Below, piece by piece: positions 3,666 through 13,277 of a stretch of 13,685 nt of DNA. The stretch's first letter is position 1; the number at the start of each line of letters is the position of its first letter. Both the position numbers and the translations under genes were made by a program. Below the pieces are notes generated by a model. It saw only the letters and a list, made by a program, of their open reading frames with translations, did no database searches and had not been told where the DNA came from. The stretch comes from Chloroflexota bacterium. GTDB taxonomy: Bacteria > Chloroflexota > Anaerolineae > Caldilineales > Caldilineaceae. The stretch covers positions 1-13,685 of the forward strand of contig QEUW01000209.1 in the NCBI GenBank assembly GCA_003577005.1, given 5' to 3'.

Positions 3666-3694
3666 GAACCCCAGACGAAAATAGAGGAAGTAAA

Positions 3695-3806
3695 ACGTAA
3701 TGCGTAATCCGTATTGCGTGTTCCGTATCGCGTGGCGCATCTACAAAGCAGCCAGAACTGCCACCACCTAACACAAGAATCACCGACTACGGAGTACGCA
3801 GTACGC
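3695..3806. repeat. Imperfect inverted repeat made of opposed heptad arrays
   Basis: Nineteen bases at 3695-3713 match the reverse complement of 3788-3806 at 16 positions, enclosing about 74 bp. The three mismatches occur at the same place in successive 7-bp units (A in the left arm, C in the complement of the right), as expected for two copies of one heptad family facing each other. It could fold into a long imperfect hairpin in the transcript just before leuS1. Confidence 0.6.
3696..3737. repeat. Six-unit heptanucleotide (7-bp) tandem array
   Basis: Six contiguous 7-bp units each begin with CGT. The first three follow CGTAWTS (first unit CGTAATG) and the last three have decayed to CGTNNNS. 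The period holds exactly over 42 bp. I recall very similar degenerate arrays scattered between genes in Chloroflexota genomes, and heptanucleotide arrays known as STRR in filamentous cyanobacteria. The relationship is inferred from resemblance. Confidence 0.7.
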
Positions 3807-3808
3807 AC
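3788..3808. repeat. Three-unit heptad array, opposite orientation
   Basis: Three 7-bp units, TACGGAG, TACGCAG and TACGCAC, run end to end. On the minus strand they read as CGTA-type heptads of the same family as the array at 3696-3737. They end 30 bp before the leuS1 start codon. Confidence 0.6.
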
Positions 3809-3838: not shown

Positions 3839-6421
3839 ATGGCAAAAGAGCATACGTACAATCCCAAAGTGATCGAGCCCAAGTGGCAGGCATACTGGCA
3901 AGAGCACCAGACCTTCTGCACCCCGGCCGACCCGGCGCTCTTGCAGGCCCGGCCCAAGGCTTATATTCTGGACATGTTCCCCTACCCCTCTGGCGATGGC
4001 CTGCACGTCGGCCACCCCAAGGGCTACACGGCGTCGGATGTGATCGCCCGCGTGCGGCGGATGCAGGGCTACCATGTCCTCCACACCATGGGTTGGGACT
4101 CCTTTGGTCTGCCCGCCGAACGGGCCGCTGACAGGGTAGGGGTTCACCCCCATGTCATCACCGAACGCAACATCGCCACCTTCCGCCGCCAGTTACAGCG
4201 CGTGGGTCTCTCGTACGACTGGGCGCGCGAGGTGACGACCTCATCGCCCGAATACTACAAGTGGACGCAATGGATCTTTCTACGGCTGTTCGAGCGCGGG
4301 CTGGCCTATATGGCCGATGTGCCCGTGAACTGGTCGCCCAGCCTGGGCACCGTGCTCTCCAACGAGGAAGTCCACGACGGCAAGTACGTCGAAACCGACG
4401 AACCGGTCGAGCGCCGCCTCATGCGCCAGTGGATGTTGCGCATTACCGCCTATGCCGAACGGCTGCTGGAAGATCTGGACGAGTTGGACTGGCCTGAAAG
4501 CATCAAGGAGCAGCAACGCAACTGGATCGGCAAGTCGGAAGGAGCATATATTGATTTTGAAATCGTTGACAATGGACAATGGACGATAGACGATAGGCCA
4601 CCGCCCATCCGCACTTTTACGACCCGGCCTGATACGCTCTTTGGTGCGACCTACGTTGTGCTGGCGCCGGAGCATCCGCTGGTGGATCAGATCGTCACAG
4701 CCGATCAGCAGGACGCGGTGCAAGCATATATCGCCGCAGCACAACGCCGCTCTGACCTGGAACGCACGGCAGCCACCGAGGAGAAGACGGGCGTCTTCAC
4801 CGGCGCGTATGCGGCCAACCCGGCTACGGGCCAGGCGCTTCCCATTTGGGTCGCCGATTACGTACTGATGGGCTACGGTACCGGCGCCATCATGGCCGTA
4901 CCCGCCCACGATGAGCGCGACCACGCCTTTGCCCGCCAACATGGGCTGCCCGTCCTCGAAGTCGTGCGCGGGGGCGAGGTTCCGGTGCAGGAGGCGGCCT
5001 TTGTGGGCGAGGGCATCAACGTCAACAGCAGGTTCTTAGATGGCTTGCCCACGCCAGAAGCCGAGCGACGAATCATCGAGTGGCTGGAGGAGACGGGTCA
5101 CGGCGAACGCGGCGTCCAGTACCGGCTGCGCGACTGGCTCTTCTCGCGCCAGCGCTACTGGGGCGAACCCTTCCCCATCATCCACCTGGACGATGGGGCG
5201 ATCATGCCCGTGCCGGAGGATCAACTGCCGGTGAAGTTGCCGGGGGTGCTGGAAAATCCGCCGGTCGACGGCCAGCCGCCCCTGGCGCGGGCCGACGATG
5301 ACTGGCTGCTGGTGACGCTGCCCGACGGCCGCACCGGCGTGCGCGAGACCAACACCATGCCCCAGTGGGCGGGCTCGTGCTGGTACTATCTGCGCTTCAT
5401 CGACCCGCACAACGACCAGCAGCCCTGGCGCCCGGCGTTGGAACAGTATTGGATGCCCGTGGACCTCTACATCGGTGGGGTGGAACATGCCGTGCTGCAC
5501 CTGCTCTACGCCCGTTTCTGGCACAAGGTGCTATACGATGCAGGCCTGGTCTCCACCAGGGAGCCCTTTCAGAAACTGTTCAACCAGGGGCTGATCCAGG
5601 CGTATTCGTACCAGGACGAGTCCGGCAAGTACTATTACCCGCATGAGGTCGAGGAACGGGACGGGCAGTGGTTCGCCAAGACCACGGGCCGGCCTGTGCG
5701 CACGCAACTGGAGAAGATGTCGAAATCGCGCTACAACATCTTCGGGCTGGACGCCGTCGTAGACGAGTATGGCGCCGATGCGCTGCGGCTCTACGAACTC
5801 TTTATCGGCCCGTTGAGCGCCAGTGGCCCCTGGCAGATGGACGGCCTGGCCGGCGTCTACCGCTTCTTACAGCGCGTCTGGCGGCTGGTGATCGACGAGC
5901 AGAGCGGCGAGTTGAACCCAAGGCTGGCGACAACACCGGCGGAGCGCGCGCCGGATCTGCACCGACTGCTGCACAAGACGATCCGTCAGGTGAGCGAGGC
6001 CGTCGAGTCGCTGGACAAGATGAACACGGCGGTCAGTACGTTGATGACCTTTGTCAATGCGGCGACCCAGGCCGCTATATTCCCGGTCGAGATGGCCAAG
6101 ATCTTCTTGCGGCTGCTGGCTCCCTTTGCGCCCCACATCGCCGAAGAGCTGTGGCAACGGTTGGGTGAGCGTGAAACCATCGCCTACGCGCCGTGGCCGA
6201 CCTACGATGCCGAATTGGCTAGCGACGAGATTATCGAGATCGCAGTCCAGGTCAATGGCAAGCTGCGCAGCGTGGTTCCAGTCCCGGCCGGTGCATCGGA
6301 TGCGGTTTTAGAAGCAGCCGCCCGGCAAGATGAGAAGATCCAACGTGCGCTCGACGGCGCCACCGTCCAGAGAGTCATCGTAGCGCCGGGAAGACTTGTA
6401 AACTTTTTGACCAGAGGTTAA
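3839..6421 (+). CDS. leuS: Leucyl-tRNA synthetase, divergent copy (LeuS1)
   Basis: This is an 860-residue class I synthetase that attaches leucine to tRNA-Leu in the cytoplasm, and all domains are present. The HIGH motif is HVGH (56-59). The editing (CP1) domain has the threonine-rich TTRPDT (261-266) and [12 protein letters not shown] with the key aspartate D358. KMSKS is at 626-630, followed by an anticodon-binding domain and the C-terminal VQVNGKLR tail. Sequence around [17 protein letters not shown] (162-178) is closer to LeuRS of Bacteroidetes/Spirochaetes type than to LeuS2. The zinc-ribbon cysteines expected here are replaced (NWSP, no CxxC). Residues 244-253 are encoded by a 7-bp repeat array, an extra loop in the editing domain. 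GAGGA lies 6 nt before the ATG. It looks intact and functional, and horizontal acquisition is my inference. LeuS2 lies 195 bp downstream. Confidence 0.96.
4568..4595 (+). repeat. Heptad array translated in frame inside leuS1
   Basis: Four contiguous 7-bp units, two of GACAATG then two of GACGATA, lie within the coding sequence. They encode residues 244-253 ([10 protein letters not shown]) between two strands of the CP1 editing domain, just before TTRPDT. LeuS2 has only a short turn at this point, so the array looks like an insertion that preserved the frame. It differs in unit sequence from the arrays in the leader but has the same period. Confidence 0.7.
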
Positions 6422-6616: not shown

Positions 6617-9112
6617 ATGACCGACCGTTATTCACCGGCTGAAATCGAACCCAAGTGGCAAACGTGGTGGGAAGAGCAAGGGCTGCACGATACAGTGGAA
6701 GACCCTAGTCGGCCCAAGTGGTATGCACTGACCATGTTGCCCTACCCATCGGGCGACCTCCACACCGGTCACTGGTACGCCTATACGCCCAGCGACGCCG
6801 CCGCGCGCTTCCGTCGCATGAACGGCTACAATGTCTTTTTCCCCATTGGCTTTGACGCCTTTGGCCTGCCCGCCGAAAACGCCGCCATCCGGCACAATGT
6901 CCACCCCAAGGAGTGGACCTACGCCAACATCGACCGTATGAGAGCCCAGTTGCGGCGCATGGGCGCCATGTGGGCGTGGGACCGCGAGGCCATCTCGTGC
7001 GACCCGGACTATTACAAGTGGAGCCAGTGGTTCTTCCTGCGCTTTTATGAGGCCGGGCTGGCCTATCGCGAGTATGCCCCGGTAGACTGGTGCCCCAACT
7101 GTAACACGACCTTAGCGCGCGAACAGGTCTGGGGCGAAGACCGTCACTGCGAACGCTGCGGCACCCCGGTGATCAAAAAGCTGCTCAACCAGTGGAAATT
7201 CCGCATCACCAACTATGCCGACGAATTGCTCGACAAGCTGGACGAGATCAACTGGCCCGAACGGGTCAAGGTCATGCAGACAAACTGGATCGGGCGCAGC
7301 GAAGGGGCACAGGTTACGTTTCATACCGAGCAGGGCGATCCACTGGAGATCTTCACCACGCGGCCCGACACGCTATGGGGCGCAACCTTTATGGTACTGG
7401 CCCCAGAGCATCCGTTGGTGGACAAGGTGACGACCGCCGAGCACTGGGACGCGGTCGAAGCATACAAGGCCCAGGCGGCGCGCCTGGACGAGATCCAGCG
7501 CGGCGCGGCGGACAAGGAAAAGACCGGCGTCTTCACCGGCGGCTACGCCATCAACCCGATCAACGACGAGCGCATCCCTATTTGGACCGCCGATTATGTG
7601 ATGATGGGCTACGGCACGGGCGCCATCATGGCGGTGCCGGGTCACGACCAGCGCGACTTCGAGTTTGCCCGCAAATTTGGCCTGCCCGTGCAGGTAGTCG
7701 TCCAGCCGCCCGACCAGGAGCTTGACGCCGCTACCATGACCGCAGCCTGGCCCGATGAAGGTATCATGGTCAACTCCGGCCCCATCAACGACGTGCCGGC
7801 GGGTAAGGGACCGGGTGAGAGCGTCCAGGTGACCATCGACTGGCTGGAGCAGACGGGCAAGGGCCAGCGCGCCAAAAATTACCGCCTGCGCGACTGGCTG
7901 ATCAGCCGCCAGCGCATGTGGGGCGCGCCCATCCCCATCATCTACTGCGAACGGTGCGGGACGGTACCTGTACCCTACGAAGATCTGCCCGTACTGCTGC
8001 CCGACGATGCCGAGTTCAAGCCTACGGGTGAAAGCCCGCTGCGCTATCACGAGGGCTTCCGCTATGTCAAATGCCCGCAGTGTGGCGGCGACGCCGAGCG
8101 CGAGACCGACACCATGGACACATTTATGTGCTCCAGTTGGTATCAGTACGCCTATGTCACGCCCTATTACAAGGCCGGCGAGCCGATCCATCGGGACGAC
8201 ATGCCGTGGGACCCGGCTAAAGGCGAATACTGGCTGCCGGTGGACCAGTACACGGGCGGCATCGAACACGCCACCATGCACCTGCTCTACACCCGCTTCT
8301 TTACCAAGGCGCTGCGCGACATCGGCGTAGTGGACTTCGACGAACCCATGCAGCGTCTCTTCAACCAGGGCATGGTGCTGGGACCCGACGGAGAGAAGAT
8401 GTCCAAAAGCCGCGGCAACGTGGTCAACCCCGACGAGATGGTGGCCAAACATGGCGCCGACACGGTGCGCGGCTATCTGATGTTTATCGGCCCGTGGGAT
8501 CAGGGTGGTCCGTGGGACCCAAGCGCCATCGAGGGCGTCTACCGCTTCCTGGCTCGCACCTGGGTGGTAGTGACCGAGGAGCCCGATTCGCACCAGATGA
8601 TGGCCACGCCCACCTCGGAGGAACTGCGAGCGCTGGAGCGCAAGCTGCACCAAACGATCCTCAAGGTGACCGACGACATCCGCAACTTCCGTTTCAACAC
8701 CGCCATCGCCGCCCTGATGGAGATGAACAACGCCCTCTTCAGGGCCAAGGATTCCGCCGTGGTCGGCACCGGGATGTGGCACGAGGCGTTGGAGACCCAA
8801 CTCAAACTCATGGCCCCCATCTTCCCCCACATCAGCGAGGAGTTGTGGCAGCGGCTGGGAAAGAGCGAGAGCATCCACTTGCAGTCCTGGCCGCAGGGCG
8901 ACCCCGAAAAGGCGAAAGAAGACGAAATCGAGGTAGTGGTGCAGGTCAACGGCAAGGTGCGCGACCGGCTGCTGGTCGCCCCCGGCACATCGCAAGCTAC
9001 CTTACAAGAGCAGGCGCTGGCGCTGGAGAATGTGCAACGGTGGCTCAACGGCAAGAGCGTCCGCAAGGTGATCGTAGTGCCGGATAAGCTGGTGAATGTG
9101 GTCATTGGGTGA
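6617..9112 (+). CDS. leuS: Leucyl-tRNA synthetase, Chloroflexota-type copy (LeuS2)
   Basis: This is an 831-residue complete LeuRS. Motifs in order: HTGH (49-52, HIGH motif), zinc-ribbon cysteines C159/C162 and C178/C181, TTRPDT (247-252) and VPGHD with D344 in the editing site. A second cysteine set follows at C444/C447 and C486/C489 in the catalytic domain, then KMSKS (594-598), and the C-terminal VQVNGKVRDR tail that contacts tRNA. The N-terminus and zinc region closely match what I recall of Chloroflexus LeuRS, so this is probably the native housekeeping enzyme. The start has AGGAG 7 nt upstream (6605-6609). It lies 195 bp after leuS1 and 3 bp before the NIPSNAP gene, so co-transcription with the downstream genes is likely. 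No clear promoter of its own is visible. Confidence 0.97.
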   Translation: MTDRYSPAEIEPKWQTWWEEQGLHDTVEDPSRPKWYALTMLPYPSGDLHTGHWYAYTPSDAAARFRRMNGYNVFFPIGFDAFGLPAENAAIRHNVHPKEWTYANIDRMRAQLRRMGAMWAWDREAISCDPDYYKWSQWFFLRFYEAGLAYREYAPVDWCPNCNTTLAREQVWGEDRHCERCGTPVIKKLLNQWKFRITNYADELLDKLDEINWPERVKVMQTNWIGRSEGAQVTFHTEQGDPLEIFTTRPDTLWGATFMVLAPEHPLVDKVTTAEHWDAVEAYKAQAARLDEIQRGAADKEKTGVFTGGYAINPINDERIPIWTADYVMMGYGTGAIMAVPGHDQRDFEFARKFGLPVQVVVQPPDQELDAATMTAAWPDEGIMVNSGPINDVPAGKGPGESVQVTIDWLEQTGKGQRAKNYRLRDWLISRQRMWGAPIPIIYCERCGTVPVPYEDLPVLLPDDAEFKPTGESPLRYHEGFRYVKCPQCGGDAERETDTMDTFMCSSWYQYAYVTPYYKAGEPIHRDDMPWDPAKGEYWLPVDQYTGGIEHATMHLLYTRFFTKALRDIGVVDFDEPMQRLFNQGMVLGPDGEKMSKSRGNVVNPDEMVAKHGADTVRGYLMFIGPWDQGGPWDPSAIEGVYRFLARTWVVVTEEPDSHQMMATPTSEELRALERKLHQTILKVTDDIRNFRFNTAIAALMEMNNALFRAKDSAVVGTGMWHEALETQLKLMAPIFPHISEELWQRLGKSESIHLQSWPQGDPEKAKEDEIEVVVQVNGKVRDRLLVAPGTSQATLQEQALALENVQRWLNGKSVRKVIVVPDKLVNVVIG

Positions 9113-10883: not shown

Positions 10884-13277
10884 ATGCGTGAAGAATCTCC
10901 TGTCGCATTTGGCGAATTGTTGCGCCGGCGCCGAGAACGCGCTGGGTTGACCCAAGAGGCCCTGGCCGAAAAGGCCAATTTGACGGCGAACGCCATCGGT
11001 GCCCTGGAGCGAGGCGAACGGCGGCGCCCGTATCCTCATACCGTCCGTGCGCTGGCCGATGCGTTGGATCTCGCGGCGGCAGAACGAGAGGCGTTGGTCG
11101 CGGCCGCATCACAACGTACAGAAGCGCAGACGGCGGTGGAATCTGTTTCCACGGATGCTGGTCAGGGCCTACCCTACCAGCTTACCGGACTGGTGGGGCG
11201 CACCGCCGAAGTGGCCGTTGTCCAGCAGCTCTTGCGGCGCAGCGACCTCCGGCTGTTGACGCTCACAGGACCGGGCGGCGTGGGGAAGACCCGGCTGGCA
11301 CTTGCCGTCGCGGCGAGCTGCGGCGATGCATTTGCGGATGGCGTGGCGTTTGTCTCCCTGGCGCCTATCAGCGAGCCGGCGCTCGTCCTGCCGGCGATCG
11401 CCCAGGGGCTGGGGTTGCAGGAGAGCAGCACACCGCTGCTGCAAGGCTTGCAACGTTGGCTGCGCAACAAACAGTTTCTTATGGTGATCGACAGTTTTGA
11501 ACATGTTGCTTCAGCAGCGCCTCAACTCGTTGCGTTGCTGGAGGCTACTCCACGGCTCAAGGTGTTGATCACCAGCCGCGAGGCGCTGCGGGTGCGCGGC
11601 GAACAGGAATATCTGGTCCCCCCTCTGGCTTTTCCAAAACTGGAGCGTCTGCCATCCGCTGAGACAGTGCTGGAATACGACTCGGTCCGCCTCTTTGTTC
11701 AGCGCACGCAGGCAGTCCGGCCAGATTTTGTGCTCACAGAGGAGGAGGCGCCGGTGGTTGCCGCCATCTGCGCACGGCTGGATGGGCTACCGCTGGCGAT
11801 CGAACTGGCCGCGGCGCGCATGGCCCTGCTGACCCCGCAAATGTTGCTCGCACGCCTGGAACACCAGCTTCAGGTGCTCACCCGTGGCCCGCGCGATCTG
11901 CCCGACCGGCAGCAGACCCTGCGTGCAGCCATCGCCTGGAGCTACGACCTGCTCACGCCCGCTGAACAGCGGCTCTTCCGCCAGTTGGCTATCTTTGCCG
12001 GTGGCGCAACGCTGGAGGCTATCGTCGCGGTGTGTGGCACGGAAGGTGACCTCAGCGAGGAAGTCATCGATCAGACGGAATCGCTGGTCAATAAGAACCT
12101 GGTACGCCGCGCCGCCGACGATGGGGAGACGAGGATCGAGCTGTTGGAGACCATTCGGGCCTATGGTCTCGAACAGTTGCAGGCCAGCACTGAGATGGAG
12201 ACTCTACAGGCGAAACACGCTTCATACTTTCTTGCCCTGGCGGAAAGCGCATCGCCCCACTTGATGGGGCCAGTACAGACGGCATGGTTTCGCCGGCTCA
12301 GCCAGGAGCGTAACAACCTGCGGGCAGCCGTGCGCTTTTGGCTGGAGCGCGATGGCCATGAGGAGGCGGTTCGCCTGGTCTGGGCCTTGTGGCGCTTCTG
12401 GTGGGTGAGCGGGATGCACCGCGAGGCGCACGAGTGGATACGGCAGATAGTAGAGCGCGACGCCTCAAAGACGTTACCAGCCTTGCGGCGCTCCCAGGCT
12501 GAACTGGTGCTTGGCAGCATGGCCTGGGCGGCGGGTGACAACAGCGAAGCAGTGAAACGGTGCCAGGCGGCGGTGGCCCTCTGCGCTGAGCACCAAGACA
12601 GGCGCACCGAGGCGATTGCCCTACTCATGCTGGGCACGAGCCAGCTCAGCCAGGGGAGCTACGATCAGGCGGTCACGGAGATTCTCGAGCGGAGTGGACG
12701 CCTCTTCCACCTGATTGGGGAAGAATGGGGCGCAGCCTTTGCAACAAGTTACCCGGGCCTGGTCTTGCTGGCGCAGGGCGCTATCGCCGAGGCGCTACAG
12801 CGCCAGGAAGCGGCGCTGGCGCTCGCCAAGCAGTCTCGTGATCGGATTGTGATCCACCAGGTGTTGTATAATCTCGGCATTACCAGCGTCGCTGCTGGCG
12901 ATGATCAACGCGCGCTGCGCAACTTTGCCGAAGGGCTGGCGCATACCACAGAGGTGGAAGACAGCGCCAATGCCGGTTACTTTATCCGAGGCATTGCTGA
13001 GGTTGCGCTGCGCCACTCTGTAACCGCTGAGGCTGTGTGTTTGCTTGGCGCTGCTCACGCGCTGCTCGAAGCCGTCGGCGCACCGTTGCTACGCTATAGT
13101 CTGGAACAGTGCTGGCATGACCAGACCATCGTCCATGCGCGCACAGTTCTGGGCGACGATGCGCGCACAGTTCTGGGCGACGAATCTTTCGAACAGGCCT
13201 GGGTGGGAGGAGAGACGCTAAGTCTGGAACAGGCCAAAGCAAAAGCACAGACGCTCGCACAGCTGCTTCGTGCGTGA
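10884..13277 (+). CDS. XRE-HTH / NB-ARC / TPR STAND-type regulator
   Basis: The 797-residue protein has an N-terminal XRE helix-turn-helix (about 9-65, GLTQEALAEKANLTANAIGALERG). A STAND NTPase follows: Walker A GPGGVGKT (129-136), Walker B FLMVIDSFEH (198-207), sensor ITSREAL (229-235), and GLPLAIELAA (301-310). A winged-helix segment (about 345-430) leads to TPR-like helical repeats to about 780. STAND proteins are nucleotide-controlled switches that oligomerise on ligand sensing. With an HTH they are presumed transcription regulators; related architectures also occur in antiviral defence, but no effector domain is visible here. Walker B has VIDSFEH where LDNxEH is usual. Residues near 750-766 include an 8-residue tandem duplication. 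No clear ribosome-binding site precedes the ATG, but the HTH begins right after it. It is divergent from the cupin gene and 30 bp before a methyltransferase-like gene. Confidence 0.93.
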   Translation: MREESPVAFGELLRRRRERAGLTQEALAEKANLTANAIGALERGERRRPYPHTVRALADALDLAAAEREALVAAASQRTEAQTAVESVSTDAGQGLPYQLTGLVGRTAEVAVVQQLLRRSDLRLLTLTGPGGVGKTRLALAVAASCGDAFADGVAFVSLAPISEPALVLPAIAQGLGLQESSTPLLQGLQRWLRNKQFLMVIDSFEHVASAAPQLVALLEATPRLKVLITSREALRVRGEQEYLVPPLAFPKLERLPSAETVLEYDSVRLFVQRTQAVRPDFVLTEEEAPVVAAICARLDGLPLAIELAAARMALLTPQMLLARLEHQLQVLTRGPRDLPDRQQTLRAAIAWSYDLLTPAEQRLFRQLAIFAGGATLEAIVAVCGTEGDLSEEVIDQTESLVNKNLVRRAADDGETRIELLETIRAYGLEQLQASTEMETLQAKHASYFLALAESASPHLMGPVQTAWFRRLSQERNNLRAAVRFWLERDGHEEAVRLVWALWRFWWVSGMHREAHEWIRQIVERDASKTLPALRRSQAELVLGSMAWAAGDNSEAVKRCQAAVALCAEHQDRRTEAIALLMLGTSQLSQGSYDQAVTEILERSGRLFHLIGEEWGAAFATSYPGLVLLAQGAIAEALQRQEAALALAKQSRDRIVIHQVLYNLGITSVAAGDDQRALRNFAEGLAHTTEVEDSANAGYFIRGIAEVALRHSVTAEAVCLLGAAHALLEAVGAPLLRYSLEQCWHDQTIVHARTVLGDDARTVLGDESFEQAWVGGETLSLEQAKAKAQTLAQLLRA
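13135..13182 (+). repeat. Perfect 24-bp tandem duplication in the STAND gene
   Basis: Two identical 24-bp copies (13135-13158 and 13159-13182), beginning ATGCGCGCACAG, lie end to end. They encode a repeated ARTVLGD(D/E) segment near the C-terminus. The frame is kept because 24 is a multiple of three. The absence of any base difference suggests a recent duplication or a slippage-prone locus. Confidence 0.9.

Follow-up and report, generated by a model that had tools for sequence, protein, structure and literature searches.

The window analysed here, the whole 13,685-nucleotide stretch of DNA from a Chloroflexota bacterium, carries in tandem two genes for full-length leucyl-tRNA synthetases (LeuRS), leuS1 and leuS2, which have diverged (46% identical), together with three arrays of tandem 7-bp units (heptads), one of them inside leuS1 and two in the intergenic region 5' of it (Table 1). 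In LeuS1 Pfam recognizes four LeuRS/class I synthetase families and places residues 227-417 in the LeuRS editing domain. The four heptads of the coding array fill exactly positions 4568-4595 and are read in frame, and Tandem Repeats Finder describes them as two abutting 7-bp arrays (4568-4584 and 4582-4596); the array peptide, encoded by 4568-4597, corresponds to residues 244-253. Sequence and Tandem Repeats Finder agree in this with the original prediction of two GACAATG and two GACGATA units translated within a LeuRS. Its statement that they lie directly before the TTRPDT motif is slightly loose, as the array does precede this motif but the segment PPPIRTF intervenes. Similarly, its description of the host as an essential enzyme holds for the LeuRS identity, given the Pfam matches, but with a second full-length leuS downstream leuS1 is perhaps not the sole source of activity, and essentiality is uncertain. 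Two LeuRS above the family cut-off are likewise present in the cyanobacterium Dulcicalothrix. At gathering scores Rfam has zero matches in the window, and a perfect 24-bp direct duplication (13135-13183) lies near the end of an HTH/NB-ARC/TPR ORF.

Table 1. Features at the leuS1 locus, and putative heptad units at the equivalent loop of LeuRS homologues (P numbers).
Feature	Position or protein	Strand	Basis or remark
Intergenic heptad array, left arm, GTAATGC-type units	3690..3734	+	Lag-7 scan (3690-3726), Tandem Repeats Finder, fold, inverted-repeat search
Intergenic heptad array, right arm, AGTACGC units	3782..3807	+	Lag-7 scan, fold, inverted-repeat search
leuS1, 860-aa leucyl-tRNA synthetase, array in editing domain	3839..6421	+	ORF, Pfam, alignment to Thermus LeuRS
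Heptad array, two GACAATG then two GACGATA units (+G)	4568..4596	+	Translated as 10 residues
Possible decayed right arm CCACCGCCCATC	4598..4609	+	10/12 match to reverse complement of GATGGACGATGG, by eye
leuS2, second full-length LeuRS, without insert	6617..9112	+	ORF, Pfam, alignment
GACRATR-like units	P0001, P0005		Reconstructed from protein
GATTTTG with CCAAAAT or near forms	P0002, P0009, P0011, P0012, P0018		Reconstructed from protein
ATTTACG or AAATCGT units	P0027, P0024, P0030		Reconstructed from protein
AGTTACA with ACCTGCA	P0010		Reconstructed from protein
CATTCCA	P0016		Reconstructed from protein
GACAGAC with ACCGTCC	P0008		Reconstructed from protein
CGACGAC	P0036		Reconstructed from protein
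GCGCATT with CGCAATG	P0041		Reconstructed from protein

The coding array reaches a local score of 17.0 at lag 7, the maximum among 400 Markov-1 random windows being 12.0, and eight other lags tested in the window all remain at or below 10.0. Upon synonymous resampling with the protein fixed and the codon usage of LeuS1, a score of 17 was attained in 9 of 20,000 cases. At a threshold of 11 the window displays three arrays at lag 7, the coding one and the two intergenic ones, and zero at lags 5, 6 and 8-11. GACRATR occurs in it 14 times (four of them inside the array) against 5.45 expected, a count that none of 200 shuffles reached. The array is real and is more than chance.

The two intergenic arrays, both of different unit sequence from the coding one, are mutually inverted, with 25-nt arms that are 80% complementary, and a hairpin is predicted for them (z -2.20, with 3 of 200 shuffles equally good) that stops 31 nt 5' of the leuS1 start codon. 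For the coding array, on the other side of this codon, no stable fold was obtained (z +0.96) and inverted-repeat search at the array found no pair, the segment 4598-4609 being left unpaired as well. Homologues P0004-P0007 have ASSI or PSSI at the site of this candidate right arm, whose reading as a decayed arm is suggestive only.

When aligned to the Thermus LeuRS (1h3n), LeuS1 is 8 residues longer at the array loop. A ColabFold model of modest quality (mean pLDDT 70, pTM 0.58), built on an alignment of 39 sequences with the window protein included, displays a strand at residues 230-242, coil and a short helix, and a second strand at 257-261, the array peptide being predicted to lie at the tip of a beta-hairpin where the editing domain begins. 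The predicted strands on either side, the LeuRS Pfam matches and the shorter Thermus loop all concur with the earlier placement of the heptads in a loop of the LeuRS editing domain.

Homologues were taken as the best 120 of ~8,000 scored for each of two queries, LeuS1 and P0024, which combined gave 143 proteins clustered at 90%, so that length variants may be hidden. The closest relative bearing an organism name among those listed is a Caldilineaceae MAG (P0007, 80% identity), and P0001, which is 99% identical to the window protein and shares its loop, comes from two other contigs (longest 7,448 b) of a sample that may or may not be independent. A motif search recovered the loop in 135 of the 143 homologues, with 107 loops of 13-17 residues (89 of exactly 15) and 28 longer ones (19-52). 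For every long loop the best 7-bp-periodic DNA over all its codings was calculated by exact dynamic programming and set against that of 100 shuffled versions of the loop. A fit at lag 7 matched by at most one shuffle was found for 20 of the 28 (P0001-P0012, P0014, P0016, P0018, P0024, P0025, P0027, P0036 and P0041), not all of them independent, several being near copies (P0003-P0007); P0030 and P0068 came close, reached by 2 and 4 shuffles, respectively. A rerun with fresh shuffles gave 21 of 28, with P0068 added and P0030 reached by 3 of 100. At control lags 4, 5 and 8 the long loops passing were 1, 0 and 1; the short loops, 107 in number, gave 3 passes at lag 7 and 0, 2 and 0 at those control lags. 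Scanning the 143 proteins end to end yielded 22 peaks of at least 18 at lag 7, 19 of them in the array loop (18 proteins), the remaining three being one glycine-rich (P0073) and two elsewhere (P0127, P0137), versus 2 peaks at lag 5 and a single one at lag 8. The P0073 peak, near residue 400 and hence in a different part of LeuRS, is a GSGGVGSGG repeat.

Six long loops (P0020, P0026, P0052, P0060, P0095 and P0121) have no lag-7 signal, indicating that the loop accepts ordinary inserts too. They lend something to the notion that ordinary variation in loop length is all that is seen, its heptad look coming from chance or low complexity; but the signal is specific both to lag 7 and to one loop, and arrays are present in the DNA itself in the window and in the distant LeuRS of contig L090 described below, making this notion very improbable. 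For the window array it was rejected.

Among Chloroflexota the window alone provides heptads at the DNA level, those of its relatives being deduced from protein with free codon choice. Units were reconstructed in this manner for 15 selected loops, their letters being approximate, and would be of at least seven kinds (Table 1). When applied to P0001, whose DNA is nearly given by the window, the procedure recovered the period and GACAATG and missed GACGATA. P0003-P0007 (80-81% identity) have a loop of the window's kind, and P0002 is 88% identical to the window protein, yet shows quite a different loop. The original prediction would be weakened by homologues of distant species carrying the peptide without heptads; the similar peptide of P0003-P0007 is itself heptad-consistent, and so does not refute it. 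Heptads elsewhere in the host were followed within the window, where there are the two intergenic arrays of other unit sequence. In a 79-row tree calculated with the loop excluded, P0018, which has an insert, is sister to P0021, which has a canonical loop (SH-aLRT 99). An exchange of the entire editing domain by recombination, considered as an explanation of why P0021 lacks the insert, was dropped, since the editing domain of P0021 taken alone is still nearest to that of P0018. Changes of state were counted on 63 rows, with P0004, P0006, P0029, P0040 and all but four of the proteins beyond P0063 omitted, 19 rows having an insert (P0030 counted among them) and without a shuffled-label control. 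Presence or absence of the insert requires 7 changes on the tree of the whole protein without the loop, 8 without the editing domain, and 8 with the editing domain alone; gain and loss are indistinguishable on these trees. The homologue sequences fit better with an enduring site, at which motifs would be replaced and inserts gained and lost, than with a single insertion. Thus, the proposed insertion of an array into the loop stands in so far as heptads occupy the loop, but one event is too narrow, as relatives appear to carry different heptads.

The same comparisons bear on a possible function as a contingency locus, in which gain or loss of units would shift the frame and toggle LeuS1, with leuS2 as a backup. 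Although a 7-bp unit is indivisible by three, a second leuS lies downstream and a precedent exists in neuO of E. coli K1, described as phase variable with 3 to 53 translated AAGACTC units in its 5' region (PMC13001214), the leuS1 array resembles neuO as there described in its in-frame 7-bp units but has merely four of them, of two kinds, lies mid-gene, ~244 codons inside leuS1, and displays no sign of switching. Loop length is equal in the window and P0001, in P0003-P0007 and in P0144-P0147, the last being Prevotella-type loops that vary by substitution and not by length, and no variation in unit number appeared among close relatives, a comparison that the 90% clustering limits. Such switching is highly unlikely, and this constancy of length speaks against the mutable site that the original prediction envisaged.

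It is conceivable, though on balance doubtful, that the insert is a palindromic element, whose two inverted heptad arms would form a hairpin acting at the RNA or DNA level, as in Rickettsia palindromic elements or the P6b region of Nostoc trnL. In 11 of the 28 long loops (P0002, P0008-P0012, P0016, P0018, P0027, P0030 and P0041) no more than 5 of 100 shuffles equalled the inverted complementarity, a flattering figure because shuffles erase the 7-bp period, and this period by itself makes inverted matches longer. The well-folding intergenic heptads 5' of leuS1 point in the same direction, as do the neighbouring array pairs (within 150 nt) in viral contigs fetched through their heptads, 33 of 46 being closer to inverted than to direct. 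Against it stand the window array, with neither fold nor inverted pair, and an exchange of arms among 15 proteins, in which a single protein had its own pair ranked top by row as well as by column; arms thus fit those of the same class about as well as their own partner, and a maintained hairpin is not supported. A maintained mRNA hairpin in the array was dropped on the grounds of its fold (z +0.96), the missing inverted pair and this class-level, not partner-level, matching. An inverted origin of the long inserts is plausible. The Rickettsia elements are described as inverted-repeat DNA lying in frame in genes and tolerated there (PMC10969869, PMC6649704), and in these accounts they form families of ~150 bp with a conserved peptide. 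On the contrary, the LeuRS inserts have no conserved sequence, only a 7-bp period: their inferred units differ among homologues instead of being one element sequence conserved in unrelated genes, and inverted arms forming a stem are lacking in the window copy and suggestive only in the long inserts of relatives.

Outside the window, a scan of viral contigs with LeuS1 gave three LeuRS at 39-48% identity, among them that of L090, a viral-collection contig found solely through LeuRS similarity. Its equivalent loop (EVEFKIQNSKFKITIF) is encoded by TTCAAAA (= AATTCAA) units, unbroken over 32 nt, with a score that 1 of 20,000 synonymous resamplings reached; organism names among 120 listed relatives of this LeuRS are few, Prevotella sp. 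The loop has canonical length and reads KIQNSKFKI versus KIQDSELKI and KIQNSDLEI in array-free relatives, so that growth from native sequence, and not insertion, may account for the array. L090 is the only one with heptads among 99 LeuRS loop matches checked on DNA (some genomes twice), indicating that heptads are rare there outside the Caldilineaceae-type group. LeuRS above 64% identity were listed neither in 194 genomes of the phylum of Dulcicalothrix (30 loci fetched) nor in 18 and 21 genomes from the phyla of two other loci, and a genome-contig scan with at least 80 matching loci had none titled Chloroflexota among those listed. In P0150, a Prevotella-type LeuRS, the equivalent loop displays an 8-bp periodicity (score 24.5 at lag 8).

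The contigs fetched through heptads (21 and 19 stretches, partly overlapping or repeated) contain many arrays, 152 at lag 7 versus at most 16 at any other lag from 4 to 13, a proportion that reflects the fetching. The contigs not obtained in this way (L001-L088) hold 9 arrays at lag 7, five of them in L002, with 0, 1, 0, 1, 0 and 1 at lags 4, 5, 8, 10, 11 and 13, respectively, and 4, 7 and 6 at lags 6, 9 and 12. Location of 78 of 162 arrays within some ORF of at least 90 aa is uninformative, either strand being counted and chance ORFs being abundant. When eight hand-picked array-bearing ORFs from the heptad-fetched contigs were scanned with Pfam, the array fell within a domain match in two (Mu-type portal, L115; Eco57I methylase, L126), between the condensation and AMP-binding domains of an NRPS in one (L127), and outside every domain match in five; in one of these five, L110, it follows the portal domain and its peptide, NDRRWTIDDRR, resembles that of the window. 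In-frame heptads are present at the DNA level in a distant LeuRS (L090) and in a few other genes. The phage portal ORF of L110 also holds a duplication spaced by 105 nt (7097-7282), each copy having a translated GACGATA-type and then a CCCTCAT-type run, and one frame, set by eye, of the viral contig L098 (3775-3804) reads DGRWTMDDGR, the peptide found in P0003-P0007.

Heptameric STRRs were reportedly treated by Mazel in 1990. Heptameric SSRs/STRRs of Calothrix, Nostoc and Xanthomonas (GGGNATC) are described as more frequent than expected between genes and less so in coding DNA, and inverted pairs are reported for Xanthomonas (PMC4692102). As portrayed there, they share with the leuS1 array 7-bp units, degenerate copies and often few units; its tandem units beyond chance agree with this class, and its coding position departs from the mainly intergenic location, a trait of the class and not of every member. 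Unlike them, the array is translated, and heptads appear to recur at one orthologous loop. TAACTGA repeats of Beggiatoaceae and cyanobacteria, as described in PMC4679880, are also tandem heptamers like the leuS1 array, mostly intergenic, with one dominant unit and often near start codons, several kinds being mixed in some genomes. Comparable as a site is P6b of the Nostoc trnL group I intron, where by one account (PMC4476775) a heptad motif (TDNGATT or NNTGAGT) shifted independently between lineages at a fixed position and copy number varies. The LeuRS loop may likewise be one fixed site with a changing heptad motif, its inferred units being of at least seven kinds and its presence or absence requiring 7-8 changes, which beyond the window and L090 are known solely from protein. 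P6b as described is an RNA stem with two motif classes, whereas the LeuRS site is a protein loop with a window copy that forms no stable stem. Neither the listed open-licence papers on heptamer repeats and palindromic elements nor those on Chloroflexi and LeuRS treat heptads in LeuRS or Chloroflexota genes, which does not prove absence.

Considering all of the above, the array is best regarded, with a probability of about 0.8, as a coding instance of the heptameric (STRR-like) repeat class, recurrent at one permissive LeuRS loop. To judge from their protein sequences, relatives probably carry heptad-consistent, mutually different inserts at the equivalent loop, with several gains or losses. 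The class consists of dispersed heptameric tandem repeats, chiefly intergenic and often in inverted pairs, of which the leuS1 array would be a translated member. In Caldilineaceae-type LeuRS, arrays would repeatedly enter, replace each other in, or leave one hairpin tip of the editing domain, arising or moving perhaps through 7-nt slippage or hairpin template switching. Survival within genes would require units free of stops in every frame and a net in-frame length, the loop may tolerate arrays because it projects from the fold, and the array peptide would be a passenger and not a new function.

A bolder and rather improbable extension is that the period, and not the sequence, is inherited: a 7-bp period with inverted polarity, the left arm being G-richer and the right arm C-richer, would be rebuilt as new arrays at permissive sites by a sequence-independent heptad-generating process, e.g. 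a polymerase or repair step adding 7-nt units at hairpins, and the LeuRS editing-domain loop would act as its recorder in coding DNA across phyla. Among 22 inverted pairs matching in at least 6 of 7 positions (L092-L131), G exceeds C in the left unit of 18, equals it in 2 and falls below it in 2, a count taken from a listing and biased by the selection of fetched units.

SKIQNPKSKI- or DGRWTMDD-like peptides in predicted proteins may be translated heptads and call for caution. Heptameric repeats occur widely among bacteria, have found little explanation and are described as scarcer than expected in coding DNA; the leuS1 array illustrates a route from non-coding repeats to protein. One loop of a housekeeping enzyme with many apparent heptads, and with sisters that lack arrays, would serve as a dated, frame-filtered record of the birth of arrays, the switching of their sequence and their loss.
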